39,302 nucleotides of DNA from a virus. The notes below the pieces were generated by a model. The model worked only from the letters and a program-made list of their open reading frames with translations. It did not search any database and was not told the origin of the DNA. The stretch spans positions 1-39,302 of IMG/VR virus record IMGVR_UViG_3300049919_000071; one strand, written 5' to 3'. Position 1 is the first letter of the stretch. Each line of letters opens with the position of its first letter. The position numbers and the translations under genes are program-made. Positions 5,389-37,674 of the stretch are shown here, in pieces.

Positions 5389-5389
5389 A

Positions 5390-5716: not shown

Positions 5717-5717
5717 G

Positions 5718-5921
5718 TTATGCTCCCATTAAAAAGAATGAATTATTATAATCTGAATTTGTTACTGTTCCACCACCACCTTCTTCATTACCCCCTGTCG
5801 TAACTCCATCACCACGCCAAAATGTCTTCGTATCGGTATCATATACGAACTCCCCATCGTCAAGGACAATCGCTGTCCTTTGCGCTGTTGTTATCGGTGG
5901 TGGGAAAAATTGTGCTGACAT
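5718..5921 (-). CDS. Short fibre-hub-like protein
   Basis: A 67-residue product with LDDGEFVYDTDTKTFWRGDG at about 20-39, followed by a Gly-rich linker (GGNEEGGGGT). The pattern of an EFVYDTDT strand followed by FxxGDGVTTGG resembles the short N-terminal beta-hub domain found in phage tropism proteins (Mtd N-terminal type). Here it is a separate small gene, perhaps an attachment module for the fibre encoded next. Confidence 0.55.
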   Translation of the reverse strand: MSAQFFPPPITTAQRTAIVLDDGEFVYDTDTKTFWRGDGVTTGGNEEGGGGTVTNSDYNNSFFLMGA

Positions 5922-5933
5922 ATCTTAATATTT

Positions 5934-8212: not shown

Positions 8213-8213
8213 C

Positions 8214-10433: not shown

Positions 10434-12709
10434 TATCTGAGTTTAGATTTAATGTAGTCGTTATATCCTTGAAGGGTCTTTACTTTCAATGAGTAGTCCT
10501 TCGATGCCATGATATTCTTTAACTCCCTTACCTCTGCTGTGTTATCCTCGAAGGCTGCAAGTAAAGCCGCGCCATACTTATCAGGTGTTATATTATTCAC
10601 GCCTTGTAGTTTCACATAGGCTGCTTGTTTTAGTAGTTCATGGTTTGGTATTACATCTGCCCCTTCTGGTAGGAATGTAACCGTTGGCTTGTTCGGTGTA
10701 ACGTGCAACGAACCATCTGAATGGCGAATCAACTCAGTACCTTTTTCACCGACTAATGCCATCTCAGCCTTACCACCTTTCCGTCCTTTGGCGTATTGTG
10801 GTAGTGGAGTAGCAATAATACGTGCTACTGCTGCTGCTCCTGCGATAGCTGCCGCAATTGCGTCAGGAGTTGTAACCCCTTTCTTAGTAACTGCGAGTAC
10901 GACATTGGCAATCGCTTGTGCAATGTCTAATCCTTTTTGATATAGTGCTGCCTTACGTAAAGCTGTAATCCTGTCTCGTTCAATTTGTTTTTGTTTTGCT
11001 GCCGTCTCAGCATCTAACTTTTGCTTTAATTTAGCCTTCTTATACTCTGCCAATCCTGACTGTTCAATGAATCGCAACTCACTATCATAGTAATCACGTA
11101 GGCTTCTTTCTCTAAAATCTATTGCTTGTAATTCTTGCGATGATACTCCCGACCCGATACTACTTGCTATGTCAAATCCGCCTGCTACAATAGCCTCTTT
11201 TAGCCTTCTATTTGCTTCTTCAATTAGTTTTAATTGCTCAGGAGTTAACTTACCTTTATTCCTGCCTAACAGTAATGAGTTGAGGAGTATAGCTTCTTCT
11301 TCAGGTAGTACATTTTCAATCGTTAACCTTTCAACTTCATCAACAATTCGTGGGTACATATCTTTGTAGGCATCCTCTAATGCTTTCTTCCATCCATCAC
11401 CTTTTCCAACCCCCCAATTCTCAGCTAACGTAAGCCAGATGGGGGAGTTAACTCCTGACGCATCCTTACCACCACCTGCACGACCTCCTGCACGACCTCC
11501 TGATTTACTTGGTGCGCCACCTAACCCTTTTATTTGTAAGTCTATTAATAATGCTGACCTTTTATCAATCAATTGGCTATATAACTTTTCAGTTTCATTG
11601 ATTGCTTTTTGAATATCCTCTTTAGTTTGTGGAACTGCCGAAGAATTTACGTTTTTAATCCGTTGTAAATCTTGATATATCTTCCGACTTTCATTTACTT
11701 TCTTTAACTCAGCATCTATCAAGTCAATTCGTTGCTGTATGCCTAATTTTTCAAGCCTTTCTACCTCTAAATTGTCACCTTTTGCTTTAGCCCTTGCTAT
11801 CAATAGTTTAGTTTCCCTTTCTATATGTGTATTTCCAAACTCAATTTCATCGTTGATTTCTTTTAGGTTAGAAAGCATCCCCTCCAAAGATTCATTAAAC
11901 TTTCTAACTGAATCTGCTGCTGAATCTGTACCTGATATAAAGCTGACTATCTCTTTATAATAGATTGTAAATAATCCGATAGCTATTGTAAAAATATTAC
12001 CAAAGCTAAAAATACTTTTTGCAAATATTCCTAATGCGCCAGAAACACCATTTATTTTTCCTGTTGTTTCATTTACAGCCTTAGCCGTTGCTTGAAAATT
12101 ATCAACCAATATCGGTAGGTTGTTACTTATTGCTAATATACCCTGTTGTGCTGAGTAGGTAAACGCAGGGAGTTCCCTAAATACCTGACTGAGACTAAAT
12201 ACCGCTTGACCATAGTTACCTACGTTCCTACGTGCATTGCCTAAAGTGGCATCCATAGCCTTTAACTGATTGAGTAGATTATTCGCCTCAGTTGATGCCT
12301 TCTTATATTCAGCACTATTCATGCCAATGGTAAGTCCGATCTGTTTTGCTGACCTCTCGGCTTGTTTCTGTCTTACATCTAACTTCTCATAAGCCGATGA
12401 ATTTTCACTAACTAATATAGCCTCCTCTTTCAATGCTGCTGCCGTTCTACTCTTAGCTAACTTTAACTGTGCTGCCCCCAATGTATAATCCTGTTGCTGC
12501 TTAGTAAGTGAACTCAGATTAGTCTGCAACTTATTCACCTGATCTGTCAAATCCTTAATCTTGCTAAAGTCACCCAATGATGCTGCCATGCTAACTGCTG
12601 CTTGTGCAGTCTTAGTGAACCTATCCTCTAATGCAGCCATCTTCGCGTCAAGTTTCTCAACCTGATCGAAAGCCTTTTGCCCTATAATATCATTTATATT
12701 ATCCTGCAT
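10433..12709 (-). CDS. Tail tape measure protein
   Basis: A 758-residue product with long helices and coiled coils from the N-terminus to about 170, a hydrophobic stretch around 236-258 (GNIFTIAIGLFTIYYKEIVS), further helices (Lys/Glu-rich), and a second membrane-like helical region near 595-645. The C-terminus has AEMALVGEKGTELI and VTFLPEGADVIPNHE, a motif commonly found at the end of tape measures. It determines tail length and passes DNA into the cell. At 758 residues it predicts a tail of roughly 110 nm by the usual 1.5 angstrom per residue rule. Confidence 0.9.
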   Translation of the reverse strand: MQDNINDIIGQKAFDQVEKLDAKMAALEDRFTKTAQAAVSMAASLGDFSKIKDLTDQVNKLQTNLSSLTKQQQDYTLGAAQLKLAKSRTAAALKEEAILVSENSSAYEKLDVRQKQAERSAKQIGLTIGMNSAEYKKASTEANNLLNQLKAMDATLGNARRNVGNYGQAVFSLSQVFRELPAFTYSAQQGILAISNNLPILVDNFQATAKAVNETTGKINGVSGALGIFAKSIFSFGNIFTIAIGLFTIYYKEIVSFISGTDSAADSVRKFNESLEGMLSNLKEINDEIEFGNTHIERETKLLIARAKAKGDNLEVERLEKLGIQQRIDLIDAELKKVNESRKIYQDLQRIKNVNSSAVPQTKEDIQKAINETEKLYSQLIDKRSALLIDLQIKGLGGAPSKSGGRAGGRAGGGKDASGVNSPIWLTLAENWGVGKGDGWKKALEDAYKDMYPRIVDEVERLTIENVLPEEEAILLNSLLLGRNKGKLTPEQLKLIEEANRRLKEAIVAGGFDIASSIGSGVSSQELQAIDFRERSLRDYYDSELRFIEQSGLAEYKKAKLKQKLDAETAAKQKQIERDRITALRKAALYQKGLDIAQAIANVVLAVTKKGVTTPDAIAAAIAGAAAVARIIATPLPQYAKGRKGGKAEMALVGEKGTELIRHSDGSLHVTPNKPTVTFLPEGADVIPNHELLKQAAYVKLQGVNNITPDKYGAALLAAFEDNTAEVRELKNIMASKDYSLKVKTLQGYNDYIKSKLR

Positions 12710-14247: not shown

Positions 14248-15258
14248 TTATGTTAAAATAAAGCGATGTGAAGAATTACCAAATCCGGGAACACTACCTG
14301 TAACCATCTGAGCAACCGTAGGCGTAGTCATTACCATTTCTGTTCCTGTTACAGGGAGTATGGCTACTGTCATCGTCCATATCCCTGTCGCTGAGTTGTA
14401 AGACATATTAGATACAGCATAGTTAGTACCATCCGATACCTTCTTAACCGTAAACTGTGTCTTCAAAGTAGCGGCTGTGAACTCGGTAGAATACAAAGAA
14501 CCTAAGTCGATTGCACCGCCATCCGTAGTCATACGAACATAAATTGTAGTACCACCACCTACTGCGGCTGTTGCAACTCCTTGCGTAGTCAACTCAATGT
14601 TTCTCATTCCAACGATAGAACTTATGCTCTGACCTGTTGGCAAGGTAACAACAGATATTCGACCCATCAACTCAGTGTAATCTGCAAGAACAAAACCGAT
14701 GTAGTGTTTCGTAGATTCACCGCTTGAAATCTTAGGTAAAGGACAATAAATCTTATCAAGTGAAATACCCTGCAATACATACCCTGATGAATTGTAGTCA
14801 GGCTTAACTCCGATGATAGACCTTGTACTCTTATCGAGGATAAGCATATCATAAGCACCTTCAGCATCTGAGAATGAGTTTAAAGCGATGTCGTAATACA
14901 TACCTCCGTTAGAATACTCGAATACCCAATGGAACTGACCCGGCAACCCTTTCGTTACAGTCTTGTAAGGTGTCTCGCTAAGGGTAACATCTGTACTCTT
15001 ATCTTCAATCCCCACAAACTTACGAATTGGGTAGCACCTTGCGCCCTCTGTTGCCGATGTTGCAGGGTAGAAATATCCTGTACCTTGACAAGCGGCAAGC
15101 AATGTTGTTTGTAATGTTTGAACTTGTGTTTGTGTTATTTTCGTACCCTTCGGTACAAGGACAACTCCCTCAATTAACCCAATCTCGTAGAAGCATTGGG
15201 GAACGCCTGTATTCAGATTCTCTGTGGTACAGAACATTTCATTTGACCATGTTGGCAT
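14248..15258 (-). CDS. Probable major tail tube protein
   Basis: A 336-residue beta-rich product (MPTWSNEMFCTTENLNTGVP). The first two thirds look like a tube domain. The C-terminal part from about 225 (QGVATAAVGGGTTIYVRMTT) looks like an extra Ig-like domain, as is common on tail tube proteins. Position after the connectors and before chaperones and tape measure is canonical. Assignment is by order and fold pattern, not by a motif. Confidence 0.6.
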   Translation of the reverse strand: MPTWSNEMFCTTENLNTGVPQCFYEIGLIEGVVLVPKGTKITQTQVQTLQTTLLAACQGTGYFYPATSATEGARCYPIRKFVGIEDKSTDVTLSETPYKTVTKGLPGQFHWVFEYSNGGMYYDIALNSFSDAEGAYDMLILDKSTRSIIGVKPDYNSSGYVLQGISLDKIYCPLPKISSGESTKHYIGFVLADYTELMGRISVVTLPTGQSISSIVGMRNIELTTQGVATAAVGGGTTIYVRMTTDGGAIDLGSLYSTEFTAATLKTQFTVKKVSDGTNYAVSNMSYNSATGIWTMTVAILPVTGTEMVMTTPTVAQMVTGSVPGFGNSSHRFILT

Positions 15259-22803: not shown

Positions 22804-24723
22804 CTATTTCAAAGAAAATTTCCCCCTCTGATTCCTATGACTGAAAATCGCCATCGTCGCAGCGTCAATACAATTATGAACAAGTACACCATTAGCAAAG
22901 TACTCATGCGCGCCTTCTACCATAATGTCATAAACTGGCAATGTTCCTATCCGTTCCACGCCTACCGAATCCACCACACACTTTACTGCAATACCTAGTC
23001 CTATTCGATCTGTCGGTAAGATACTCCTTTTTGCAATGCTCGCAGGTAGCAACTTTCTTATTATCTGTCCTCCGATAGTTGTATTTCCTACTGCACGCAC
23101 CACCACAGAACCCATGTACCGCATTCTTCTTAGTAAATTCAACGCCACACATCCTACATAATGCATTGCCATATTCCCTATTCCCAAATCCTTGCTTGAT
23201 AGCGTGTTGCTTATGCCACTCAATCCCCTCCGCTGACTTGTGCCACTAGAGGTAGTAGGTCTTACCATTAAACTGCTGTGAAGGTAAACCTCCATCCCCG
23301 ATCGTAATTCTTCTATCGCTATCCATCCTTTGTTAGTTTTAATCTTGTGATCTGATGTACACTCCAAAGATACTAATAACCTACCTACCCGAATCGAATA
23401 CTTATTAACTACCTTAACGCCATTGTTAAAATTATTTACCACCCTCCTCCTACCATACGATGTCATAACAAAATCACCTTTCTTAATATCCTCAATACTC
23501 AATTCGCCATCATCCGTCATAACCTTAGTCCACCCTACAAAACAGTGGTCATTACCCTTGTGTATCTTGTTCGTCTCACTACCATCAATCTCCACAAAAC
23601 GATACTTCCCTAACTCATCCTTCAAATGAACACTCCGCCGCGTGTATTTCACCTCGTACTGCTTCACATACAACACCCGATTCAATTCCGCACCTCCACC
23701 CTTCTCCGCAGCTATCGCCCTAATACCCTCCCTTCGCATTCCCAATACCAACTCCTTATCATGGTCACAGTACACAGGCAAATCACCAGAATACCCCGCA
23801 TCACGCATCAACACCGCCAACACCGATGGCGCAATACCGGGATGATAAGCAACCTCATCAACCACGTAACTACCATCCCTCATAACCGCAACCCTTACAC
23901 AAGTAGTCGGGTCAACCGTATAGCCCCAATCACAACCCCATATCACCTCCAACACCCCCTCCACAGGCCAATCATCCACAACTCCCCAATAAAATACCAA
24001 CCCCTGTAACTTACCAGTCAAACCCCTAGCATATACCTTCCACAACTCCTTGTCCCGAATACTCTCAATCCTATCTCGCTGCTCATCAGGTAAATAAGGA
24101 TTGTGAACGTGCCACGACCGTATCATCTTCACACTCTTAAAAATTGTCTTATAGTCAACACCATCTACTAAAGCTTGCATATACTCCGCATTCTCCCTTA
24201 ATAAAATTTCATGTACCCAAAACTTAAACGTAGGGTTGTAATCCATATAAATCCGTACCTTAGTACGCATATACAACTCCCAAAAAATCCAATAATCTAT
24301 CCTCGTAGCCTCATTGATATAAATAATGTCATACTTCGCTCCCTTCGCCTGCTCCCTGTCCTCAAAACTCTTGAACTCCAAAAAACCACCACGTACACTC
24401 GTGTATATCCTGTCCTGTATGTTATATCCCCTTATATACCTCCTAATATGTGGATTCCTTACTATAATCTCCGCCGCTATCCGCATAACATCCTCCTTTA
24501 ACTTCGGAATAGTCGCACCTACTACCATTATCTGAATGTTGCGCTGTGTAACCAATAACACCAATAAAGCCTGCATCAAACTATAACTCTTCGATGAACT
24601 CGTGCCACCCTGATTCACTACAACAGTCTCCTTAGCCAACAAATTCGCATAATACAACGGCGATGGCTCCTGCTCAAATGGATGACGAACCAACTCCTTG
24701 ACCTCCAATTGCTCTGTACTCAT
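22804..24723 (-). CDS. terL: Terminase large subunit with in-frame intein
   Basis: A 639-residue precursor. Extein part: the ATPase has a Walker A-like loop (GGTSSSKSYS, 39-48) and Walker B (YDIIYINEAT, 131-140). The RNase H-like nuclease has WGCDWGYTVDPTT (Asp265) and YCDHDKE (Asp320). The third metal-binding aspartate is in CIDAATMAIF (Asp620). An intein from Cys394 to Asn617 interrupts NDH / CIDAA. After splicing the enzyme is about 415 residues, normal for this family. It cuts and pumps DNA into the prohead. It has its start 300 bases after the small terminase. Confidence 0.93.
   Translation of the reverse strand: MSTEQLEVKELVRHPFEQEPSPLYYANLLAKETVVVNQGGTSSSKSYSLMQALLVLLVTQRNIQIMVVGATIPKLKEDVMRIAAEIIVRNPHIRRYIRGYNIQDRIYTSVRGGFLEFKSFEDREQAKGAKYDIIYINEATRIDYWIFWELYMRTKVRIYMDYNPTFKFWVHEILLRENAEYMQALVDGVDYKTIFKSVKMIRSWHVHNPYLPDEQRDRIESIRDKELWKVYARGLTGKLQGLVFYWGVVDDWPVEGVLEVIWGCDWGYTVDPTTCVRVAVMRDGSYVVDEVAYHPGIAPSVLAVLMRDAGYSGDLPVYCDHDKELVLGMRREGIRAIAAEKGGGAELNRVLYVKQYEVKYTRRSVHLKDELGKYRFVEIDGSETNKIHKGNDHCFVGWTKVMTDDGELSIEDIKKGDFVMTSYGRRRVVNNFNNGVKVVNKYSIRVGRLLVSLECTSDHKIKTNKGWIAIEELRSGMEVYLHSSLMVRPTTSSGTSQRRGLSGISNTLSSKDLGIGNMAMHYVGCVALNLLRRMRYMGSVVVRAVGNTTIGGQIIRKLLPASIAKRSILPTDRIGLGIAVKCVVDSVGVERIGTLPVYDIMVEGAHEYFANGVLVHNCIDAATMAIFSHRNQRGKFSLK
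22873..23544 (-). other. Intein inside the large terminase (224 residues)
   Basis: Residues 394-617 of the precursor. Block A starts CFVGWTKVMTDDGELSIEDI. Block B is CTSDHKIKTNKGWIAIEEL. The C-terminal blocks F and G are PVYDIMVEGAHEYFANG and VLVHN followed by extein Cys. First residue Cys, penultimate His and last Asn, plus a Cys +1 nucleophile, are all present, so protein splicing looks functional. The linker between block B and block F (about residues 485-580) reads as low-quality sequence in this frame and is explained by the out-of-frame endonuclease relic. Confidence 0.9.
22928..23245 (-). pseudogene. Out-of-frame relic of a homing endonuclease inside the intein
   Basis: In another frame than the intein the same DNA reads WHKSAEGIEWHKQHAIKQGF, then two zinc-binding units (CRMCGVEF...CGGAC and CEHCKKEY...CSKVC). 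This is the usual C-terminal half of HNH homing endonucleases (WHxSxEGxxWHxxHA followed by CxxC...CxxxC pairs). The catalytic HNH half (HH, N, H) is absent, and an in-frame TAG lies just upstream at 23246-23248. So the nuclease has decayed while the splicing frame has stayed open. Confidence 0.7.
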
Positions 24724-29689: not shown

Positions 29690-29735
29690 TAATGGTTATT
29701 TAACAATTGTTGCACATAGCCATTAGTTATAAGCC
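29690..29735 (-). repeat. attC-like site H
   Basis: On the coding strand GGCTTATAAC overlaps the TAA stop of the 58-residue gene. TAATGG and CCATTA pair over the next 36 bases, with the palindrome AACAATTGTT in the loop. The core GGCTTATAAC recurs at 30687-30696 (inverted) and at site G. No full two-box stem. Confidence 0.4.
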
Positions 29736-29903
29736 ATTTTGCGTAGCCTCTAAATCAAGCAGCCTTTGTTCCTCTAACTTTACCATTTTGACAATTTCTG
29801 AATGGAAGCGTACTCTTACTCGAACGCCAATTGCTTTTTTAGGTTCTTGCTTTTTTGCCCCCGCACCTTTGCGTTTGCCCCCTCTTTGTTTTGCTTTTGC
29901 CAT
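29727..29903 (-). CDS. Small basic protein with KRKGAG motif
   Basis: A 58-residue product too short to be listed by length filters. It starts MAKAKQRGGKRKGAGAKKQE, with a strand (GVRVRVRF) and a helix (EIVKMVKLEEQRLLDLE). The basic arm GGKRKGAGxKK plus strand plus helix is the look of phage ribbon-helix-helix proteins. The start overlaps the upstream stop (TAATG), and the TAA stop falls in an attC-like core. DNA binding is likely. Confidence 0.65.
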   Translation of the reverse strand: MAKAKQRGGKRKGAGAKKQEPKKAIGVRVRVRFHSEIVKMVKLEEQRLLDLEATQNGL

Positions 29904-30049
29904 TATGGTAATATTATTTCACCTTTTTCAAGGCATTTTTTTTCAAATTGTTTTAATGCTAAGTATCCATCCCAATCAAAATTAGACATCATAAAAAGCA
30001 TATAGCAATATTGTTTTATTTCTTCTGGGGTTGATTTTAGTGTTGTCAT
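29903..30049 (-). CDS. 48-residue hypothetical protein
   Basis: A short gene starting MTTLKSTPEEIKQYCYMLFM and ending CLEKGEIILP. It overlaps both neighbours by one base (TAATG), which strongly supports translation. It is helical, with several aromatic residues (YCYMLFMMSNFDWDGY). No family is recognised. Confidence 0.6.
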   Translation of the reverse strand: MTTLKSTPEEIKQYCYMLFMMSNFDWDGYLALKQFEKKCLEKGEIILP

Positions 30050-30369
30050 TAACTATTATTTTCAATGTATTTCATTGCACCTTTTACAGTATTAAAACCT
30101 CGTTTTTCAAAGTAAGTTGATAATATCAAATCTTTATTCGCAATATCACCATTACTTGCAGATATACTATAATCACCTAAACTCAAAACATACCCTTCTG
30201 ATACTAATTCAAAAAGGTATCTTTCCTCGTGTTTACTTTTAACTTTATTAAAATGCAAGTTAAACTCATCGCAAAGAATCTTAAATAAATATGCAGTTCT
30301 ATCACTTGGTACATTTCCCATTTTAGCTTTTTTAAAGCAATCTTTTATTATTTCATCAGTAGTTTTCAT
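30049..30369 (-). CDS. Hypothetical early protein
   Basis: A 106-residue product from the ATG at 30369, just after the upstream stop (MKTTDEIIKDCFKKAKMGNV). It is helical at first, then has strands (VSEGYVLSLGDYSISASNGD) and ends AMKYIENNS. The longer upstream start would overlap the previous gene and is less likely. Function unknown. Confidence 0.6.
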   Translation of the reverse strand: MKTTDEIIKDCFKKAKMGNVPSDRTAYLFKILCDEFNLHFNKVKSKHEERYLFELVSEGYVLSLGDYSISASNGDIANKDLILSTYFEKRGFNTVKGAMKYIENNS

Positions 30370-30370
30370 T

Positions 30371-30589
30371 TTATAAAAATTTAGGTAATGAAGGAATGTT
30401 TTTACAACCATTGTTATAGTAACCTGTAACTAATCCATCCTCAATAATTGCGTTGTTATAATTAAGCATTAAAGCATTTGCAAAGTATTCAGGCGTTCTG
30501 CTTTTACCTTCTTTTTGCATATTCTCTTTGTACTGTGCTATAGCTGTTTGTTGTATGCTTTTGATTTCTTTTTGAGTTAAATTTTTCAT
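30371..30589 (-). CDS. Hypothetical early protein, first of its operon
   Basis: A 72-residue product from the ATG at 30589 (MKNLTQKEIKSIQQTAIAQY), preceded by an A-rich leader as is common in Bacteroidota. The first half is one long helix and the end is ...NIPSLPKFL. It follows promoter 30609-30642 and heads the row of small genes down to 29727. Function unknown. Confidence 0.6.
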   Translation of the reverse strand: MKNLTQKEIKSIQQTAIAQYKENMQKEGKSRTPEYFANALMLNYNNAIIEDGLVTGYYNNGCKNIPSLPKFL

Positions 30590-30608
30590 TTTTTTTTCTT
30601 TTGTTACA

Positions 30609-30642
30609 CAAAGATAAATGTTATTTGAATACAAAAATCAAA
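30609..30642 (-). promoter_or_regulatory. Promoter candidate TTTG-N22-TATCTTTG
   Basis: TATCTTTG (30609-30616) on the minus strand with TTTG 22 bases upstream (30639-30642), within the spacing known for flavobacterial promoters. It lies 20 bases before the ATG at 30589 and right after attC-like site I. Confidence 0.55.
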
Positions 30643-30686
30643 ATTCAAAAATAATTTTAAAATATTTTTTATTACACGAAAAAAAC

Positions 30687-30820
30687 GGCTTATAACATAA
30701 GTATTTGCAAGAGTAGGGCTTGACGAATAACGGCTCAACTGATTGCATCTATTTAACTTCAGTAAGTTATTGTGCTGACGGAACGCTATATCCTACCCTC
30801 GCCAATACTCGACCGTTATC
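30687..30820 (-). repeat. attC-like site I (134 bp imperfect palindrome)
   Basis: On the coding strand the site opens with GATAACG (the TAA is the stop of the DnaA-like gene) and closes with GTTATAAGCC. In between, GTATTGGCGAGGGTAGG (30808-30792) pairs with CCTACTCTTGCAAATAC (30717-30701): 17 positions with one mismatch and two G-T pairs. Length, terminal AAC / GTT cores and paired inner boxes follow the attC plan. Confidence 0.6.
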
Positions 30821-31205
30821 TACCTACCGCACTAATAACCATCAATTTAGGCGGGTTGCAATACTCCCCTGAGTACTTCTTCTTGACAGGTGCGTCCGGT
30901 ATAAGTACAGCCCTGATTTCTGGGTACTTGTTGCAGACGGCTTTTAGGTTCTGCATGGTCATTGAATCCTTTACGTCTATGAAGTCTGATATAACCCGAA
31001 TGCTGTGGATTACGGTTGTATGATCTTTGCCGTTAAGCGTCATACCTATTTCAGTCAGTGAAGCGGTGGTGACCTTCTTAGCTATGTAGCAATATAGTTG
31101 CTTCACTGCTACTACTTCATTTTTACCGCGCCTCTTAGCGTTGATTTCGTCTATTGTGTAGCCTGTGGCGTGCGCGACGGCTGATAGGATTTCGGATGGT
31201 GTCAT
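30816..31205 (-). CDS. Stand-alone DnaA domain IV-like protein
   Basis: A 129-residue product with the DnaA C-terminal DNA-binding pattern: VAVKQLYCYIAKKVTTASLT (about 32-51) and EIGMTLNGKDHTTVIHS (52-68), matching the DnaA signature (SLxEIGxxFGGRDHTTVxH). No AAA+ domain precedes it. It probably binds DnaA boxes, either to recruit the host initiator or to compete with it. It starts in an ATGA overlap with the upstream gene. Confidence 0.8.
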   Translation of the reverse strand: MTPSEILSAVAHATGYTIDEINAKRRGKNEVVAVKQLYCYIAKKVTTASLTEIGMTLNGKDHTTVIHSIRVISDFIDVKDSMTMQNLKAVCNKYPEIRAVLIPDAPVKKKYSGEYCNPPKLMVISAVGR

Positions 31206-31348
31206 GTCTTTTTTATTATTAGTTTAGAATCCTTGTACATCGCCTGCACAATCCTTGCAAGCCTGAGCGTGTCTGCATACGGTTCCGTTGCTGTGAACCT
31301 TTCGGCTACCTTGCCAGATGGTAGCATGATGGTGAATGTGTAGGTCAT
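31202..31348 (-). CDS. 48-residue hypothetical protein
   Basis: A short gene starting MTYTFTIMLPSGKVAERFTA and ending KDSKLIIKKT. It has ATGA overlaps at both ends with the DnaA-like gene and the upstream gene, so the three are translated together. A beta hairpin followed by a helix (DTLRLARIVQAMYKDS). Function unknown. Confidence 0.65.
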   Translation of the reverse strand: MTYTFTIMLPSGKVAERFTATEPYADTLRLARIVQAMYKDSKLIIKKT

Positions 31349-31623
31349 TTTAAATGTTTTACTCGTAATCCTAACGTATAGGAATAATAGTTAATCTGTT
31401 GTTGAGATTCGACATTATCCCAATACCATTCAATGATCGATCCTTTCGGTTGTTCTGTGTCAATATCAAGTCGAATATCATCGAAAGATAGGAACATATC
31501 GGCGATGTCTAAGATGCCTCCTATTCGGTTCCCTACCCATGAACCCCTATCCGTGCCTTGTTTGATACTGAATAGTTTGATGTACTTATCTACAATGGTT
31601 TCGTAGTCTGTTTTTAGTTTCAT
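31345..31623 (-). CDS. Hypothetical early protein
   Basis: A 92-residue product (MKLKTDYETIVDKYIKLFSI) with a helical start, a central acidic strand (SFDDIRLDIDTEQPKG) and a basic end (LRVKHLK). From memory, the central part (ILDIADMFLSFDDI... WYWDNV) is common in Bacteroidota phages as a protein of unknown function. It heads the operon of the DnaA-like protein. Confidence 0.6.
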   Translation of the reverse strand: MKLKTDYETIVDKYIKLFSIKQGTDRGSWVGNRIGGILDIADMFLSFDDIRLDIDTEQPKGSIIEWYWDNVESQQQINYYSYTLGLRVKHLK

Positions 31624-31647
31624 TTGATAATCAGCTATTTATTTTTA

Positions 31648-31673
31648 GTTGCGTATATATCTACGTTAGTGCC
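31648..31673 (-). repeat. attC-like half-site J
   Basis: On the coding strand CACTAACGTAGATATATACGC follows the stop at 31680. The wording resembles site B (GCTAACGTATCGCATATACC). No inverted partner is seen. Confidence 0.35.
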
Positions 31674-31679
31674 ATTTAA

Positions 31680-31811
31680 CTAATCAATAATAATTTGAAT
31701 ATCCTCAAATTTTACTAATTCGCCATCTTTATCTTCATTTAATTCTGTCCATACAGAACCACTACCTTCCCATCCTGAACCAGTTGAAGTTTCATATCTT
31801 TTTAATCAAGT
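31680..31811 (-). pseudogene. Small gene with a probable one-base indel at its start
   Basis: The frame reads KRYETSTGSGWEGSGSVWTE and on to VKFEDIQIIID and a TAG, which looks like a genuine small phage protein of about 42 residues. No start codon lies in frame. If one A of the AAAAA run (31799-31803) is removed, a TTG start at about 31811 gives MIKRYET. So a homopolymer error or a real disruption is likely. An attC-like core follows the stop. Confidence 0.5.
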
Positions 31812-31859
31812 TTTGTGGTGGAATACGCCACCTCGTTCAGCTGCAACACGTTATAAGCC
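31811..31859 (-). repeat. attC-like site G
   Basis: GGCTTATAAC on the coding strand holds the stop of the 94-residue gene, identical to site H. It is followed by a hairpin GGTGG / CCACC (31817-31832) with a 6-base loop. Confidence 0.4.
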
Positions 31860-32135
31860 ATTTTCCCAACGACCGACAACCCAATCAGGGACAATCCCAT
31901 CATTTGTTCTATTGGCTAAATCTTCATCCCAACTAAAATTGACTACTATCTTTTCATCTGAACTCCAATCCCTACCAAAATCTTCAATAGTCAATTCAGC
32001 ATCGTATTTAGCCAATAATGTTTTTAACTCTTTTTGGAATTGTTCAACCTTATCTTTACCCGACAAAAAAACGGCAGGTAACAAGGTATTGCCAAAAGTG
32101 GGGGTTTTGTCTTTCAATTTATCTTCTGTACTCAT
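31851..32135 (-). CDS. Hypothetical early protein
   Basis: A 94-residue product (MSTEDKLKDKTPTFGNTLLP) with a helix (KVEQFQKELKTLLAKYDAEL) and an acidic strand region (IEDFGRDWSSDEKIVVNF), ending RWENGL. Its last codons ENGL* overlap an attC-like core and match the end NGL* of the 58-residue gene at 29727. Function unknown. Confidence 0.6.
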   Translation of the reverse strand: MSTEDKLKDKTPTFGNTLLPAVFLSGKDKVEQFQKELKTLLAKYDAELTIEDFGRDWSSDEKIVVNFSWDEDLANRTNDGIVPDWVVGRWENGL

Positions 32136-32152
32136 ATCAAAATTTGTTTTTC

Positions 32153-32176
32153 AATTCAACTTAGGTGGTTAAAAGC
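32153..32176 (-). other. Small hairpin between two early genes
   Basis: AGGTGG and CCACCT (six-base arms) enclose GGCTTTTAA on the coding strand. No T-tract follows, so it is not a clear terminator. It may be another degenerate attC-like stem. Confidence 0.35.
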
Positions 32177-32205
32177 CCCACCTTCGACAATACTTTGTCA
32201 TTGCT

Positions 32206-32451
32206 TCATATCGTAACCAAACATTGCGCATAGTTATTTATATGGAATCTTCCGTTTATTTCCCATGTGTACCCTAGTCGCTTGTGCTTCGTGTTGGGTA
32301 TCGATTGGAGTTTGTTGTACCGGAGAAACGAGTGTATAACCTGAAACTGTATATCGAGTTTGTCAGCCATTGCCCTTATGGTATGTTTGTGCGAGTTTTC
32401 TCGTAGCCATGCTTTATTGGCAGGTGTGAGGGATTCAGATGCGCGGCTCAT
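32206..32451 (-). CDS. Helix-turn-helix-like protein
   Basis: An 81-residue product. Residues 8-45 (LTPANKAWLRENSHKHTIRA, then MADKLDIQFQVIHSFLRYN) have the look of a helix-turn-helix (xxxIRAMADKLDIxxxxVxxFLR). The rest (HKRLGYTWEINGRFHINNY) is strand-like. The start is an ATGA overlap on the upstream gene. A regulator or DNA-binding accessory is likely. Confidence 0.6.
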   Translation of the reverse strand: MSRASESLTPANKAWLRENSHKHTIRAMADKLDIQFQVIHSFLRYNKLQSIPNTKHKRLGYTWEINGRFHINNYAQCLVTI

Positions 32452-33029
32452 GGTTTTGATTGTTTTATCAGTTCGTCGTATGCTTCAAGAGCCTTGTTTG
32501 CCCACTTGGTAGCTGTTTCGGGGTCGCAACAATTGATTGCACTTGCAACAGATACCCATACATCCCGCCAAAACTGTTCCCTTTTATCCGCTATCATCAC
32601 TGTTGGTACGTTGACCGATTCAATATGTTTTCTTATTCTCTCATTGAACTCCTCTACGGTTTCACCTTTAGGCTTTGATCTGCTGCGTAGATACTCTTCA
32701 CCATTTACCCATTCTGGTTTGGTTTGCTCCTGTACTGTTTCACCTTTAGGTGTTCCCTCCACTTGTTTTGTTCTTTGTTTTGATGGCTCTACTATAAGCA
32801 ATTGTACGGCTAATCTACTACTATCAGCATACTTATAAGCATCTTCTGAGGATTCAAAGCATCCAAGAATAGTTTTATTATACACTTCAATTACAACATA
32901 AACTTTTTGGATATGCCGTTCCTCCTCCTCGTCTTTGAGGTATGGTAGGATCTCTTGGTAGATATCTTTAGGTCTTATTAAAACTTCTTCCCATAAAGAT
33001 TCAAACCGTTCTAATGTTAGCAGTTTCAT
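32448..33029 (-). CDS. Hypothetical early protein
   Basis: A 193-residue product (MKLLTLERFESLWEEVLIRP), mostly helical, with a linker rich in Lys, Pro and Glu (KPEWVNGEEYLRSRSKPKGE) that contains the near-repeat PKGETVQEQ / PKGETVEEF. The end is helical again. It lies downstream of the OB-fold candidate. No family is recognised. Confidence 0.55.
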   Translation of the reverse strand: MKLLTLERFESLWEEVLIRPKDIYQEILPYLKDEEEERHIQKVYVVIEVYNKTILGCFESSEDAYKYADSSRLAVQLLIVEPSKQRTKQVEGTPKGETVQEQTKPEWVNGEEYLRSRSKPKGETVEEFNERIRKHIESVNVPTVMIADKREQFWRDVWVSVASAINCCDPETATKWANKALEAYDELIKQSKP

Positions 33030-33038
33030 GGTATTGTT

Positions 33039-33374
33039 TTAAAAATGTGGAAAATCATCAATTGTACCTTGCGCCTGTGGTTCCGCCTTCGTGACCGTTA
33101 GCGGTTCAATGCGCCATGCTTGAATGGTGGCAAAGTACTTATCTTCACCTTGTGGCGAAGTCCATTTGCGCCCTCTTAGATTGACTGATACGCTCACTTC
33201 TTGTCCTAATTTGAAGTTATCAAGTAAGCTACATTTATCCATCTGAAATTCCATTGGAATGAGTTGTGGATATTGCTCTGTTGTTTCGATAACAAATTCA
33301 CGTTTACTAAATTTATCGCTCACTACTTGTGTAGGTTTAAGGACTGCGATGCGGCCTGTGATTGTGTTGCTCAT
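33039..33374 (-). CDS. OB-fold single-strand DNA-binding candidate (DUF3127-like)
   Basis: A 111-residue product. The core (MSNTITGRIAVLKPTQVVSD, then FSKREFVIETTEQYPQLIPM and SVSVNLRGRKW) matches DUF3127-type proteins, an OB-fold family found in Bacteroidota. It ends GTIDDFPHF, an acidic tail like the DDIPF tip of bacterial SSB that binds partner proteins. It lies right behind the strong promoter 33392-33422 and among replication genes. Probably coats phage single-stranded DNA. Confidence 0.75.
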   Translation of the reverse strand: MSNTITGRIAVLKPTQVVSDKFSKREFVIETTEQYPQLIPMEFQMDKCSLLDNFKLGQEVSVSVNLRGRKWTSPQGEDKYFATIQAWRIEPLTVTKAEPQAQGTIDDFPHF

Positions 33375-33391
33375 GTTTATTTATTGAATTA

Positions 33392-33422
33392 CAAATATAG
33401 GTATATAATTTAAACGGTCAAA
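33392..33422 (-). promoter_or_regulatory. Promoter TTTG-N19-TATATTTG
   Basis: TTTG (33419-33422) and TATATTTG (33392-33399) with 19 bases between, a perfect match on the minus strand. It stands between the terminator at 33433-33460 and the OB-fold gene (ATG at 33374). Confidence 0.75.
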
Positions 33423-33432
33423 TTAAATGTGG

Positions 33433-33460
33433 TAAAAAATAGCATACATTCGGGTATGCC
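33433..33460 (-). terminator. Rho-independent terminator
   Basis: On the minus strand GCATAC, a 6-base loop and GTATGC are followed by TATTTTTT. It ends the transcript that carries the lipoprotein gene and the tRNA-like element. A smaller hairpin (GCCTC / GAGGC) lies just before it. Confidence 0.8.
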
Positions 33461-33513
33461 AGCCTATCCTTCAGCGGAATCATGATGCCTCATACGATAG
33501 AGGCCAATTTATG

Positions 33514-33621
33514 TCAGGAGGGAATGAATCGAACATTCTTAATAATCTCTATCTGTTATCTTTACACCTATAAAGGTCAAGACGTGTACACGATTATGCG
33601 TAGCCATTCCGCCACCTCCCG
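33514..33621 (-). tRNA. tRNA-like element (Leu/Ser-type arms), anomalous anticodon region
   Basis: Acceptor arms CGGGAGG (33621-33615) and CCTCCTG (33521-33515) pair with one G-T. U8-G9, a D arm GCG / CGC with a TGG loop, and a T arm GAATG-TTCGATT-CATTC are all present. TAATC and GATTA form a possible anticodon stem, but enclose 44 bases instead of 7. No normal anticodon arm is found. So it is a tRNA with an insertion, a degenerate tRNA, or a tRNA-like RNA. The 3' CCA is absent (ACA). Confidence 0.5.
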
Positions 33622-33718
33622 AGTTGCCGGTCTGCCTCCGGCTACTTGAATAAAATACTATGAAATAAAGAGCTGTTGCCTGAATCGCATCCGCTCAGAC
33701 CAAGCGGTAAAGAACTTT
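33622..33718. other. Structured spacer upstream of the tRNA-like element
   Basis: No protein gene. It contains GGTCTG / CAGACC arms 60 bases apart (33629-33634 and 33696-33701), and a GCCGG / CCGGC hairpin (33626-33642). This could be another, more degraded tRNA-like RNA or a processing leader. No T arm was found. Confidence 0.35.
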
Positions 33719-34174
33719 CTAATTCGCTATACCCCTACTCCCTCTTACTTTCTTTTCGTACTCAATGGCCACCTGTGCCATGCCTCCTGACACGTAAGTA
33801 ACGGACTTGGTAAGGTCGGACGAAGGGTAATACACCGCATCGGCAGTGGTAAGGATGTGATCGTTTACGTCCTCGCACATTTCGGCATTGGTCACGTAGC
33901 CGAGAAAGTTGCCGTTTCCGTCATAGGCCAGGATTTCGCCACTCGTCGTACCTGCCACATATTCGGCTGTGGAACCGATCCACACATCGAATGTCTGTGA
34001 GGCGTATGGTTGGATTGCAATGCCGGTATATGTCCTGTTAGCGATACCTCTGCTGCCTCTGGTTTGCTTGACTACTTTTGCGGTTGGCGTTTCCACGACT
34101 GAGGCTTGTTTTTGACAACTTGCTGCGAGGATTGAACTGACCGCAACTATCAGTAATAAATCGAGAATTTTCAT
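33719..34174 (-). CDS. Secreted or lipidated protein with duplicated RGSRGIAN
   Basis: A 151-residue product with a signal peptide and lipobox (LLLIVAVSSILAASC, Cys at about 20). The body is a beta-rich domain (YTGIAIQPYASQTFDVWIGS). The segment RGSRGIAN appears twice: at about 40-47 and as the last eight residues. The protein would be anchored in the envelope early in infection, so superinfection exclusion is a plausible role. Base composition at its 3' end is more GC-rich than its neighbours. Confidence 0.65.
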   Translation of the reverse strand: MKILDLLLIVAVSSILAASCQKQASVVETPTAKVVKQTRGSRGIANRTYTGIAIQPYASQTFDVWIGSTAEYVAGTTSGEILAYDGNGNFLGYVTNAEMCEDVNDHILTTADAVYYPSSDLTKSVTYVSGGMAQVAIEYEKKVRGSRGIAN

Positions 34175-34205
34175 TGTATTAAATTTTTAATGATTAATAA
34201 AAAAT

Positions 34206-34250
34206 TGACTTCGATTTCGCCCACCCACCGAGTACAGGCGTTTAGTGTTA
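34206..34250 (-). repeat. attC-like site F (weak)
   Basis: After the stop of the exonuclease gene the coding strand reads CACTAAACGCCTGTACTCGG and then GGTGGGCGAAATCGAAGTC, a pattern related to sites C and I (AAC core then GTGG, GCGAA). No partner arm found. Confidence 0.3.
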
Positions 34251-34865
34251 TAATAATTGTTTTAACTGCTCAATGTATTTCAACTTCAACTCAGTACCCA
34301 TCACAATGCGTTCCCTCATTACAGTAATCACTTCTTCATTACGTGGTACTTCTATTGTGAAACTGTACGACACGCCTTGATGTACTGCGTAGTTGTGGTA
34401 ATACCCTTTGTCCCCTCCTAAGCATAGCAATTGCATTTGTATCTGATTAAAGTCCTTTTCAGGTATTTCTTTCTTTAAATACTTCTTACCAAAGTTAGCC
34501 ATTGTAGGGCATTTAATCTCTAAAGAGTCATTGATTCCGACAACCCCATCCGGTGAGGCTCCTGCATGATCTCCGTAAGTTATGAACCCTGATTTTTTTA
34601 CTTCGATGAATTTCTCACCCATTATTTGCCAAAAGTCATCAAAGGCATAAGGTTCGTTTTCTACGCCTCGAAGCATATCAAAACTTTGGTAATCATCTTC
34701 AACCATTCCAAATACCGCCTCAGTTGCCTTCTCCATGCAGTAAGATTCAAAGCCTTCTTGTCCTTGCTTAGTGGTCAACTTACCGAGTAAGCGAGTAATC
34801 TCACTTGCTGTAAATCGCCCTAATCTTAGTTGATACCATTCTACTGACCGTTGTACTTGTTCCAT
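34248..34865 (-). CDS. Lambda-type exonuclease (YqaJ / RecB-like)
   Basis: A 205-residue product with the YqaJ pattern: SVEWYQLRLGRFTASEITRL (7-26), HAGASPDGVVG (Asp106 at 100-110), EIKCP (Glu116, Lys118) and FNQIQMQLLCLGGDKGYY. The D...ExK set plus Gln is the PD-(D/E)XK nuclease core of this family. It resects double-strand ends for recombination. It overlaps its upstream partner gene by 25 bases. An annealing protein is expected nearby. Confidence 0.88.
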   Translation of the reverse strand: MEQVQRSVEWYQLRLGRFTASEITRLLGKLTTKQGQEGFESYCMEKATEAVFGMVEDDYQSFDMLRGVENEPYAFDDFWQIMGEKFIEVKKSGFITYGDHAGASPDGVVGINDSLEIKCPTMANFGKKYLKKEIPEKDFNQIQMQLLCLGGDKGYYHNYAVHQGVSYSFTIEVPRNEEVITVMRERIVMGTELKLKYIEQLKQLL

Positions 34866-35344
34866 GCTGCTGTAATTTCGGGAGTGATTGAATATGATTT
34901 ACTAATACTTTCGAGTGTGGCTTTGGCTGCTTTGGCTTTCTCAAACATTGCCTCTGTGAACTGTGGCTTTACTTTCTCAATTGTTGGCTTAATAGGCTTG
35001 ATCTTGATTCCTCCTACTATTACGCCTTTCATCTTGACAGTTTCATCTATCATTAGTTCAACCGGAATATTTTGCCAATCTTCAACGAAAGGTGAACCAC
35101 CTGCAAATCCTTTGACTATCTTTGAATTTCCTGCATTGAGTACCCAAGGCTTAACGTTTGGTTCAACGAAGTATGCAATGTTGAAGTTGCCTCGATTGCC
35201 TGCTACTAAGGCGTTCATTTCCTGCCTTACTTCTTTGATTGTGAAGATCAGTTTACGACCTTCTTCGATGTAATCTTCTAAGTCTGCCACTCCTAAGTGA
35301 TCGGACTTGAATACTTTTCTGAAATGATGTTTTTGTTGTTCCAT
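34841..35344 (-). CDS. Partner protein of the exonuclease
   Basis: A 167-residue product from the ATG at 35344 (MEQQKHHFRKVFKSDHLGVA). The core FKSDHLGVADLEDYIEEGRK followed by VKMKGVIVGGIKIKPIKPT is found, from memory, next to YqaJ nucleases in Bacteroidota phages. The function is not established. It could be an accessory or single-strand-annealing partner. The longer start at 35395 runs into a non-coding spacer and is rejected. Confidence 0.6.
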   Translation of the reverse strand: MEQQKHHFRKVFKSDHLGVADLEDYIEEGRKLIFTIKEVRQEMNALVAGNRGNFNIAYFVEPNVKPWVLNAGNSKIVKGFAGGSPFVEDWQNIPVELMIDETVKMKGVIVGGIKIKPIKPTIEKVKPQFTEAMFEKAKAAKATLESISKSYSITPEITAAWNKYNGQ

Positions 35345-35410
35345 AATATTTTTAGTTTTAGGTTCAAAAATCTGGCGTGTTAACGTATGCGCCACCCACG
35401 AACCTTGAAG

Positions 35411-35459
35411 CGGTTAACTGTTAGTTTACATCTATTGCCGTTAGCAATGAGTTATGTGC
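35411..35459 (-). repeat. attC-like site E
   Basis: The coding strand reads GCACATAACTCATTGCTAAC after the methyltransferase stop, with two AAC cores, followed by ACTAACAGTTAACCGCTTC. No long stem is seen. Confidence 0.35.
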
Positions 35460-35463
35460 AATG

Positions 35464-36291
35464 CTACCGACCACCATTCAAACGAGCTTTCGTTATTTCA
35501 ATAGCTTTCGGGTTCAAATCACAGCCGATAAAATTTCGGTTTAATTCCTGACAAACTTTGGCGGTTGTGCCACTACCTAAATAGTAATCGGCTACTACAT
35601 CACCTTCATTTGTGGAAGCTAAAACAAAACGGCTTATTAGTTCCTTTGGTTTTTGGGTAGGATAACCTGTCAATTCTTTGTTATCTCTACTAATATATGT
35701 AACATCTTCAAACCAATCTTTCGGCAAACTTCCATCAGCTAATGAGTATTGTGTTCGCTTACCATTTTTCAAAACAGTGTAATAACCAAAAGTGTCAATT
35801 TCTTTCTTAAATCTTCGGTATGTTAAATCAGATATGCTGTCTTTCACAATACCCGAATTGAAAATAAACACATCACTTTTGGAGTAAAATAATATTACAT
35901 CGTGTTTTTTATTCCACTGTTTTGTTGTTTTGCCTTGCGAATTGTAACACCACACAATTTCATTTTGGAAGTTATCGTACCCAAAAACAGCATCCATTAA
36001 AATACGCATCCAATGGTTAATTCGTGTGTCCATTTGTAAATAAATTGAGCCGTTTTGTTTTAGCACTCGTTTCATTTCAATAAGTCTTGGTAGGTAGTGG
36101 CTTTCAATTTCGCTTCGTATTGGCTTTAAATCTTGGTAATCACCAAAGTTTCTACCTGTGCCATAAAGTATATCGCAATAAATCATATTTACGCTTTCAT
36201 TAGGCTGTGATTTTAGGAGTTCCAAATTATCACCGCACTGCACATAACACGGGTTTGCCAAAATGGTGGCAGTAGTACTATCTTTGAACAT
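35464..36291 (-). CDS. DNA methyltransferase (N6-A or N4-C), variant motif IV
   Basis: A 275-residue product. Motif IV, usually DPPY, reads DILY (40-43) in MIYCDILYGTGRNFGDY. Motif I is DYYLGSGTTAKVCQELNRN (235-252), followed by IGCDLNP. The pre-motif YPTQKPKELISRF is standard for this class. The middle (about 115-200) is the target-recognition region. There is no restriction partner, so it probably protects phage DNA. Whether DILY keeps activity is open. An attC-like core follows the stop. Confidence 0.82.
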   Translation of the reverse strand: MFKDSTTATILANPCYVQCGDNLELLKSQPNESVNMIYCDILYGTGRNFGDYQDLKPIRSEIESHYLPRLIEMKRVLKQNGSIYLQMDTRINHWMRILMDAVFGYDNFQNEIVWCYNSQGKTTKQWNKKHDVILFYSKSDVFIFNSGIVKDSISDLTYRRFKKEIDTFGYYTVLKNGKRTQYSLADGSLPKDWFEDVTYISRDNKELTGYPTQKPKELISRFVLASTNEGDVVADYYLGSGTTAKVCQELNRNFIGCDLNPKAIEITKARLNGGR

Positions 36292-36322
36292 TTGTATTTC
36301 TATTTGTCATTAGTAATAAATT

Positions 36323-36373
36323 GGGCATTTGAGCTTCGATTGCCACCACTTCGGCAAGCCCCAAAACGTTAGC
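36323..36373 (-). repeat. attC-like site D
   Basis: The coding strand has CAGCTAACGTTTTGGGGC after the stop of the 61-residue gene, then a hairpin TTGCC / GGCAA (36340-36357) with an 8-base loop and GAGC...GGGC arms. A compact but degenerate form of the structure at site C. Confidence 0.4.
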
Positions 36374-36375
36374 TG

Positions 36376-36561
36376 CTATTTTACTGACCACTCCGAAAGT
36401 TTAGACTTGACAATAATTTTCAGTTCATCAACTTTTGACAATGGACAGCGAAAAGCAACCGTTTTAGTTTGCTCGTTGTATTTAGGTTTAGCACCCGACC
36501 CTTGCCGAGTGCCCCCATGTTTATTTTTTAACTTTTTCAAGGTATATTCTTTTATCTTCAT
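36376..36561 (-). CDS. Small basic protein with GGTRQGSGAKP motif
   Basis: A 61-residue product: basic arm LKKLKNKHGGTRQGSGAKPK, strand (TVAFRCPLSK) and helix (VDELKIIVKSKLSEW). Same layout as the 58-residue gene at 29727: GGxRxGxGAK arm, strand, helix. A ribbon-helix-helix DNA-binding protein is likely. It overlaps the 78-residue gene by 41 bases. Confidence 0.6.
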   Translation of the reverse strand: MKIKEYTLKKLKNKHGGTRQGSGAKPKYNEQTKTVAFRCPLSKVDELKIIVKSKLSEWSVK

Positions 36562-36757
36562 ATTGTTGAAACCCGTGATGCGGTGCTACATATCTTATCG
36601 CTACATATTTACCTTTGCTTCTCCACGCATATTGGTGGTCAATATCTTTAAACAAAAAGAAAGCAATAACCTTACAGTCCTGCTGTTTAAGTTGAGATAT
36701 AGCAGCATCAACTCTATCTCGTAATGTTCCCTTTATTTGTTCTAATTGAATTTTCAT
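36521..36757 (-). CDS. Hypothetical protein expressed from a near-leaderless promoter
   Basis: A 78-residue product from the ATG at 36757 (MKIQLEQIKGTLRDRVDAAI). The middle CKVIAFFLFKDIDHQYAWRS is a strand region with aromatic residues, then YVAIRYVAPHHGFQQYED. The -7 box TATATTTG ends 4 bases before the ATG. It heads a two-gene unit that follows attC-like site C. No family is recognised. Confidence 0.6.
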   Translation of the reverse strand: MKIQLEQIKGTLRDRVDAAISQLKQQDCKVIAFFLFKDIDHQYAWRSKGKYVAIRYVAPHHGFQQYEDKRIYLEKVKK

Positions 36758-36761
36758 ACTA

Positions 36762-36793
36762 CAAATATACAACGCTTATTTTGAACTTGCAAA
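36762..36793 (-). promoter_or_regulatory. Promoter TTTG-N20-TATATTTG, near-leaderless
   Basis: TTTG (36790-36793) and TATATTTG (36762-36769) with 20 bases between, a full match on the minus strand. Four bases separate the -7 box from the ATG, as at 22772. Confidence 0.7.
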
Positions 36794-36857
36794 CTTTTTC
36801 AAAGATATTTTTTATTTATTTCCTAAAGTGCTGAAAATCAAAGAGAAAAAAACAGCA

Positions 36858-36953
36858 GCTAACACGCAATTGGCAAAATAAAAGCCATTAAGTGTAGTGC
36901 AGAACTTCAACAGTAGTGCAAGGCTTTTACTTCGCCAATCTCCACCGTTATGC
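36858..36953 (-). repeat. attC-like site C (96 bp imperfect palindrome)
   Basis: Terminal cores GCTAAC (36858-36863) and GTTATGC (36947-36953). Inside, ATTGGC (36869-36874) pairs with GCCAAT (36934-36939), and after a symmetrical 4-by-4 internal loop TAAAAGCC (36879-36886) pairs with GGCTTTTA (36922-36929). Fourteen paired bases in two boxes, a spacer, and outer AAC / GTT cores with one unpaired base: the plan of an integron attC site. Confidence 0.65.
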
Positions 36954-36959
36954 GTAATT

Positions 36960-37256
36960 TTAAGCACGACACAACCAATATAAGTTCCAAGTTTCACCGT
37001 CAATCATATCAACAACATTATCGTTATCAATTTTATCAAACACCATTGGCTGTGTTGGCAACGGTTTTACAAGCTCGCTTTTGAAATAAACTTTTGCTTT
37101 CCAATTAATTTTGACTAAATCCCCTTTTTTGAATTTACATTTAGGGTTGTACCACACACGCTCCCAATCAACGTAACGGTATAAAAAACTACGCACAACA
37201 GCATATACCCAAAAGAGGGGTTGACGTGCAAAATTGAAGTTAAGTGCTTTTTTCAT
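36960..37256 (-). CDS. Hypothetical cassette-like protein
   Basis: A 98-residue product (MKKALNFNFARQPLFWVYAV) with an aromatic N-terminal helix, then a beta-rich part FKKGDLVKINWKAKVYFKSE that resembles an SH3-like barrel, and an acidic tail with NVVDMIDGETWNLYWL. Its leader TTAGAAATACAGATG resembles that of the methyltransferase gene. Stop lies next to site C. Function unknown. Confidence 0.6.
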   Translation of the reverse strand: MKKALNFNFARQPLFWVYAVVRSFLYRYVDWERVWYNPKCKFKKGDLVKINWKAKVYFKSELVKPLPTQPMVFDKIDNDNVVDMIDGETWNLYWLCRA

Positions 37257-37287
37257 CTGTATTTCTAAATTTAAAGTTTGTACTGTT

Positions 37288-37321
37288 TAATCCCTCCTTC
37301 GGGTATATGCGATACGTTAGC
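37288..37321 (-). repeat. attC-like half-site B
   Basis: The coding strand reads CCGCTAACGTATCGCATATA, then CCCGAAGGAGGGATTAAACA, 12 bases after the stop of the 94-residue gene. The tail GGATTAAACAGTA is shared with site A (GGATTAAATAGTA). No inverted partner. Confidence 0.4.
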
Positions 37322-37328
37322 GGTAATG

Positions 37329-37613
37329 CTACGACACACGTTCAAAAATATGTCTGACAAATTCGCCACGTTGATATTGATAAGTTCCGACAAATTTTCT
37401 TTCAATACCCATATCATTATGAATAGGATGTCCAGTTCCAAAAAGTTCAAAAAACCTTTCTTCTTTTTCGTTTTCAGGATATACCAAAGCCCATATACAA
37501 GGTATCATAGTTTTTTGGTCTTGCTGTACTGAAAGTATTTCAGACTGTGTTGGCATTTGAAGTGAAAATTTATCTTCAAATGGTGTTTCAAATTTCCAAA
37601 TTGCTTGTTTCAT
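37329..37613 (-). CDS. DUF7352-like protein
   Basis: A 94-residue product: KQAIWKFETPFEDKFSLQMP at the start, then ILSVQQDQKTMIPCIWALVY (about 26-45) and FELFGTGHPI. The pattern (WKFE... MP.....LSVQ....PC.WALV.P ... F..FGTGHP) matches the DUF7352 family. A second member with lower similarity is at 25539-25802. No function is known. Attached attC-like cores flank it on both sides. Confidence 0.7.
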   Translation of the reverse strand: MKQAIWKFETPFEDKFSLQMPTQSEILSVQQDQKTMIPCIWALVYPENEKEERFFELFGTGHPIHNDMGIERKFVGTYQYQRGEFVRHIFERVS

Positions 37614-37639
37614 TCTACTAATTTGATAGGTTATTACTA

Positions 37640-37674
37640 TTTAATCCGCTACTGGTCATATACCCACCGTTAGC
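37640..37674 (-). repeat. attC-like half-site A
   Basis: GCTAACGGTGGGTATATGAC on the coding strand overlaps the stop of the 108-residue gene (TGC TAA CGG). No inverted partner, but it shares its tail with site B. Confidence 0.4.

Follow-up and report, generated by a model that had tools for sequence, protein, structure and literature searches.

Hairpin-bounded gene cassettes in a viral contig form a probable CALIN-like array homologous to arrays of Bacteroidota and Ignavibacteria

The described systems closest to the locus presented here are integrons and the clusters of attC-type sites that lack an integrase (CALINs). Qi et al. 2023 (PMC9892861) reported integrons and 17 CALINs in phages, among them one Polaribacter phage with methyltransferases, and some of these sites were active with IntI1. 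For the Bacteroidetes, a single complete integron is named by IntegronFinder 2.0 (PMC9024848). Escudero et al. 2016 (PMC4792948) discuss Xer and the CTXphi hairpin, a case that lacks both the I2 domain and extrahelical bases; they propose that IntI arose from a Xer-like ancestor that gained an I2-like domain, and they consider a viral origin. We analysed the IMG/VR viral contig IMGVR_UViG_3300049919_000071 (39,302 bases, called the window throughout and taken at its full length), which encodes a tail tape-measure protein, a terminase and a primase/helicase, with genes mostly on the minus strand. An initial annotation had listed ten sites, A to J, in this contig and had taken a phage CALIN to be a novelty, which it is not, since the 17 published cases include a Bacteroidota phage with methyltransferases (PMC9892861). 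The segment is probably a CALIN-like array of mobile gene cassettes, each composed of a hairpin, one or more downstream open reading frames (ORFs) and a terminal core. Homologous hairpins make up large arrays in the chromosomes of Bacteroidota and Ignavibacteria, and the recombinase serving the segment would act in trans. The system appears to lack two features held to define integrons, namely the I2 domain and the extrahelical bases.

The whole window was scanned, with no prior positions, for YAAC ... GTTR patterns with complementary arms. Four places, B (37322-37193), D (36374-36242), C (36953-36857) and I (30821-30690), ranked among the top scores, and dinucleotide-shuffled windows yielded a mean of 0.05 places at a score of at least 28 and none at 33 or above. 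Covariance models were adopted because looser AAC/GTT cores produced numerous hairpins by chance on either strand. After a first model (R1), a second one (R2) was built from 22 host-chromosome sites alone, with no phage sequences, so as to avoid circularity. R2 recovers five minus-strand sites, with E-values from 9.7e-24 to 1.7e-8; across the window, its only other matches at E < 0.1 are weaker ones to those same five on the opposite strand. They are hairpin B (37324-37191; R1 94.2 bits, R2 E 5.3e-18), hairpin C (36955-36855; R1 E 2.8e-8, R2 E 1.7e-8), hairpin D (36376-36240; R1 111.9 bits, R2 E 1.1e-19), hairpin I (30823-30688; R1 72.4 bits, R2 E 1.4e-9) and a further hairpin, G2 (32205-32074; R1 103.8 bits, R2 E 9.7e-24 for a match spanning 32208-32074), which had been overlooked when two full palindromes were counted. 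All five share a layout of a 5' AAC box, a short spacer, a stem and a 3' TGTT box, in which a 5' arm CGAAG, or a near variant, lies opposite a 3' arm TTTTG or CTTG. Four of them carry AACG at the 5' box, the core of G2 being degenerate (TGACA); in hairpin B, this box and the stem are followed by the 3' box GTTGTGCGTA, and the 22-nt arms are 86% complementary. Across 51 aligned sites, each of the 15 consensus pairs shows compensatory changes. The consensus stem contains no extrahelical bases: the arms of the host consensus pair without bulges and have two G.T positions instead. Among the viral sites, the AAC box is present in 107 of 111 and the GTT box in 110 of 111; both the paired R''-R' boxes and the inner stem of attC are present.

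What makes units of these sites is the way in which their ends match. The bases that follow the 3' GTT of a hairpin (R') are complementary to the core located past the following ORF, at a mean of 8.3 of 11 positions in viral arrays and 8.45 of 11 in bacterial ones, whereas they match the boxes of their own site at 4.4 of 11, against a random expectation of 4.3. In the window, the cassette ends of B, C, D and I are matched by sequence. Unit B, whose 98-residue ORF (36960-37256) starts at an ATG within the hairpin loop, has an R' that pairs with the core ahead of hairpin C at 9 of 11 positions. For unit C, with a coding region at 36376-36772 (ORFs 36521-36772 and 36376-36561), R' pairs with the core ahead of hairpin D at 10 of 11. 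Cassette D encodes an N6/N4 DNA methyltransferase (35464-36291; PF01555, E 4.8e-43), again with an ATG within the hairpin loop, and its terminal core GCATTGCACATAAC (site E, 35464-35451) is complementary to R'(D), GTTATGTGCAGTGC; this core lies about 10 bases from the CTAACG originally marked as site E. Unit I holds small ORFs at 30371-30634, 30049-30411 and 29727-29903 (coding region 29727-30634) and ends at the core GGCTTATAAC (site J, 29735-29726), complementary to R'(I), GTTATAAGCC. Among viral cassettes in general, a stop codon lies no more than 20 bp from the next core in 77 of 97.

The remaining sites are less complete. Unit G2 comprises an ORF at 31851-32135 that ends at the core GGCTTATAAC (site G, 31859-31850), after which no hairpin body follows. 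Site A (37674-37645, core GCTAACG) and site H (31672-31650, core CTAACG) consist of the core and the 5' arm alone, and none of these three half-sites is matched by R1 or R2. Thus, of the ten sites first listed, B, C, D and I are complete hairpins and E and J are matched terminal cores; A, G and H keep an AACG core but no complete second arm, and site F (34242) has neither AAC-G nor a hairpin. The suggestion that the sites were decayed or convergent repeats holds as regards decay at A, G and H; for the five complete hairpins, convergence can be dismissed. The broader view of attC-like sites at gene ends that bound exchangeable units is borne out, as is the lack of an integrase, a profile search having found no match to the recombinase family PF00589 anywhere in the contig.

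Related phages indicate that such units come and go. Five viral contigs that are about 90-96% identical (L002, L003, L006, L007 and L023) were compared. At one locus, L002, L003, L006 and L023 hold four different units and L007 holds none. At a second, L007 reads uninterrupted as GCGGATAAC followed by TCATCGC, whereas L002 has GCGGATAAC, a unit, CGCATAAC and then TCATCGC; the unit is inserted exactly 3' of GATAAC, and the breakpoint falls at the core without longer homology. The expectation that gene order would change by whole segments between cores therefore holds at these two loci, where units differ from the TAAC core onwards, but other indels lie away from the cores.

The same hairpins occur far beyond this contig. 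Sixty viral contigs and at least 119 bacterial genome stretches, the latter nearly all from Bacteroidota and Ignavibacteria, contain a 19-mer made of the 3' arm and the core. Of 34 genomes of those groups, R1 finds sites in 33, at 3 to 97 per genome and often in one-directional arrays, and the CP058707 chromosome has at least 97 sites across about 480 kb. The top integrase-like matches of these genomes adjoin array ends, and the hairpin strand is directed toward the recombinase at every locus checked. As the first recombinase loci had partly been chosen for adjacency, ten more were selected by recombinase score, together with ten Xer loci from the same genomes; hairpins were found nearby in 7 of the 10 score-picked family recombinases versus 0 of the 10 Xer loci. 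For the array and phage recombinases alike, the best NCBIfam model is NF040815 (site-specific tyrosine recombinase/integron integrase), with 168-231 bits, mostly under its 220-bit cut-off, and the name of this family is silent on cassette arrays. TIGR02249 gives the linked recombinases 150-208 bits against a cut-off of 265, and no full IntI exceeds that cut-off in 35 host genomes. The distance from the conserved lysine motif to HxxRH is 65 residues in the linked recombinases versus 102-108 in IntI, which means that they lack the additional (I2) domain. In a phylogenetic tree, the array, phage and IntI recombinases form one group apart from Xer, with a support of 97/88 that applies to the group as a whole and not to the order within it, some branches being long. 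An IntI-like protein from a Flavobacteriaceae metagenome-assembled genome (locus L260, contig G035:C85) carries the motif of the IntI additional domain; it was set aside, as its contig showed no visible hairpin link and may be a contaminant. Two further observations concern host loci: in CP058707.1 (about 3.49-3.96 Mb), the recombinase is located about 20 kb past a huge hairpin array, and the chromosome of Flavobacterium covae CP067379.1 contains two near-identical recombinase genes, each with a separate hairpin array.

Some viral contigs encode a related recombinase next to an array, with 53 of 53 hairpin matches on the recombinase strand. They include contig G061, which has tail, lysis and replication genes, and contig G060, with clamp-loader and chaperonin genes. 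Since phages with both recombinase and array exist, and no such enzyme is found in the window, the phage studied here has cassettes of the phage type but not the recombinase. Three isolates that infect Flavobacteriia and encode related integrases (Freya_10, Leef_1 and Ingeline_1) have one weak site at most. Among the Polaribacter phages Freya_1 to Freya_10 (MT732463-MT732472), of which Freya_10 has the one weak site, the stretch upstream of the integrase gene varies in length by as much as 5 kb. Another viral contig (IMGVR_3300044612_002213) has about 19 attC-like sites in the same direction at 4127-12332, and no PF00589 recombinase was found in it.

Phage and host cassettes differ in polarity. 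When intervals containing an ORF of at least 100 residues were classified by their longest ORF, 39 of the 42 viral intervals that could be decided had it on the same strand as the hairpin (sense:antisense 39:3), and 69 of the 72 bacterial ones had it on the other strand (3:69), a result repeated on a second set. Host arrays follow the classical plan, with the hairpin 3' of the ORF within the cassette and the ORFs directed away from the recombinase. Phage cassettes are inverted, the hairpin being upstream of its own ORF and not, as is typical of attC, downstream. The window follows this phage arrangement, so that the classical polarity initially assumed for it, opposite to what is seen there, does not apply. 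For 36 of 97 viral cassettes, the ATG is located within the hairpin, part of which is therefore translated; in the window ORF at 31851-32135, for instance, the N terminus MSTEDKLKDKTPTFGNTLLPAV is the translation of the hairpin 3' arm (peptide PTFGNTLL). An inversion of the whole system relative to integrons was considered and rejected, because the inversion is limited to the phage cassettes.

By analogy with the way IntI uses the attC bottom strand (PMC2727003), and judging from the natural junctions, AAC-G would be the box that is cut. The recombinase would bind the folded strand with TAAC-G as its 5' box and cut there, circular cassettes being inserted or removed. A flipped ORF in a phage cassette would have the inserted gene read in the direction of phage transcription. 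Trans action is proposed for the window because the recombinase is absent from the contig; the enzyme might be supplied by a host array or by a co-infecting phage.

Three other explanations were weighed. One is that these are standard integron cassettes, with classical attC sites served by an IntI that has the additional domain, which were transduced from a bacterium and are decaying in the phage. The general architecture, the core boxes and the stop codon at the core do resemble those of attC cassettes, the half-sites A, G and H show decay, and phage CALINs have been published (PMC9892861). But the identification as standard attC sites, also implied at the outset, is not supported by the bulge-free consensus stem or by the missing additional domain in the linked phage recombinases; furthermore, no full IntI passes the TIGR02249 cut-off in the 35 host genomes, the hairpin model does not match a class 1 integron stretch, and phage cassettes run opposite to host arrays. 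We thus regard this explanation as very improbable. Alternatively, the hairpins could be substrates of the host Xer, as for CTXphi, and not of the array-linked IntI-like recombinase. A bulge-free stem and a recombinase without I2 recall the CTXphi/Xer case (PMC4792948), and the array of the window has no recombinase of its own. The absence of hairpins near Xer loci, set against their frequency near loci of the IntI clade, and the IntI-clade recombinase that often adjoins the array in phages make such a role highly improbable. The idea that we find hardly credible is that conserved intergenic hairpins, acting as terminators or RNA elements, have been spread by homologous recombination, the exchange being ordinary phage mosaicism. 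It can draw on the location of the hairpins at gene ends, on a fold that is more stable on the coding strand in five of five cases, and on the phage indels away from cores. It is largely refuted by R' matching the next core across the ORF and not its own; moreover, the empty/filled pair breaks at the core without longer homology, the hairpins are tied to a specific recombinase clade and directed at it in all loci checked, and in host arrays they are antisense to the ORFs.

Several points weigh against a mobile cassette array itself. No recombination event was observed, and it is from the comparisons above that we infer cassette recombination. In unit G2, hairpin and end core do not match, several indels among the related phages fall away from cores, and in L001, the contig nearest to the window (about 98% identity across the replication region), the 1.1 kb unit I (the I-J segment) is missing with a junction that is not exactly on the cores. 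The contigs compared are metagenomic. No attI was identified, although no search for one was made. Finally, IntI1 requires the additional domain (Messier and Roy 2001, as cited in PMC4792948), and a recombinase without I2 may therefore work differently.

Compared with the published phage CALINs, exemplified by Polaribacter phage P12002L (PMC9892861), the window is alike in having attC-type clusters without an integrase together with methyltransferase cassettes. However, P12002L gives a single weak match to our model, at 14497-14630 and away from its methyltransferase genes, and the window sites belong to another hairpin family; in addition, the window cassettes are inverted and related phages have their own recombinase. 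With sedentary chromosomal integrons, the system shares an array that runs in one direction up to a tyrosine recombinase, cassettes whose two ends match, an AAC-G motif in the box that recombines and, in hosts, ORFs directed away from the recombinase; it differs in a recombinase without I2 and in hairpins that have two G.T pairs and no extrahelical bases. Xer and the CTXphi attP hairpin resemble it in that the enzyme lacks I2 and the hairpin lacks extrahelical bases, but here a dedicated recombinase clade sits beside large arrays, and the ten Xer loci compared are hairpin-free. Among open-access papers, the range covered (preprints and subscription papers lay outside it), no description of this hairpin and recombinase lineage or of the polarity flip in phages was found. 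A further-reaching proposal, which we put forward tentatively and rate as possible rather than likely, is that of an early-branching integron lineage without I2 and extrahelical bases, common to Bacteroidota and phages, which would be a living Xer-IntI intermediate and in which phages would have their own integrons, with cassettes inverted to suit transcription. Integron surveys keyed to the additional domain of IntI would miss such arrays; the hairpins occur in nearly all the genomes searched, against the one complete Bacteroidetes integron named by IntegronFinder 2.0. A cassette clade without I2 or extrahelical bases, in chromosomes as well as phages, makes the I2-gain idea of Escudero et al. 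testable, and the system could show integron origins. Phages, for their part, would gain a modular swapping of counter-defence genes such as methyltransferases.

As to the rest of the contig, no Rfam family matched across the window, a nucleotide search of a phage collection returned no close relative, and the YqaJ exonuclease used as a query recovered no viral loci. Imperfect short direct repeats at 33-230 (plus strand) encode NVVFSGMAVS...YKEPPT. The large terminase subunit is apparently split by an intein at 22869-23545 (minus strand), with a Hint-like segment ending in VLVHNC, and about 670 bases at this putative intein are missing from L001.

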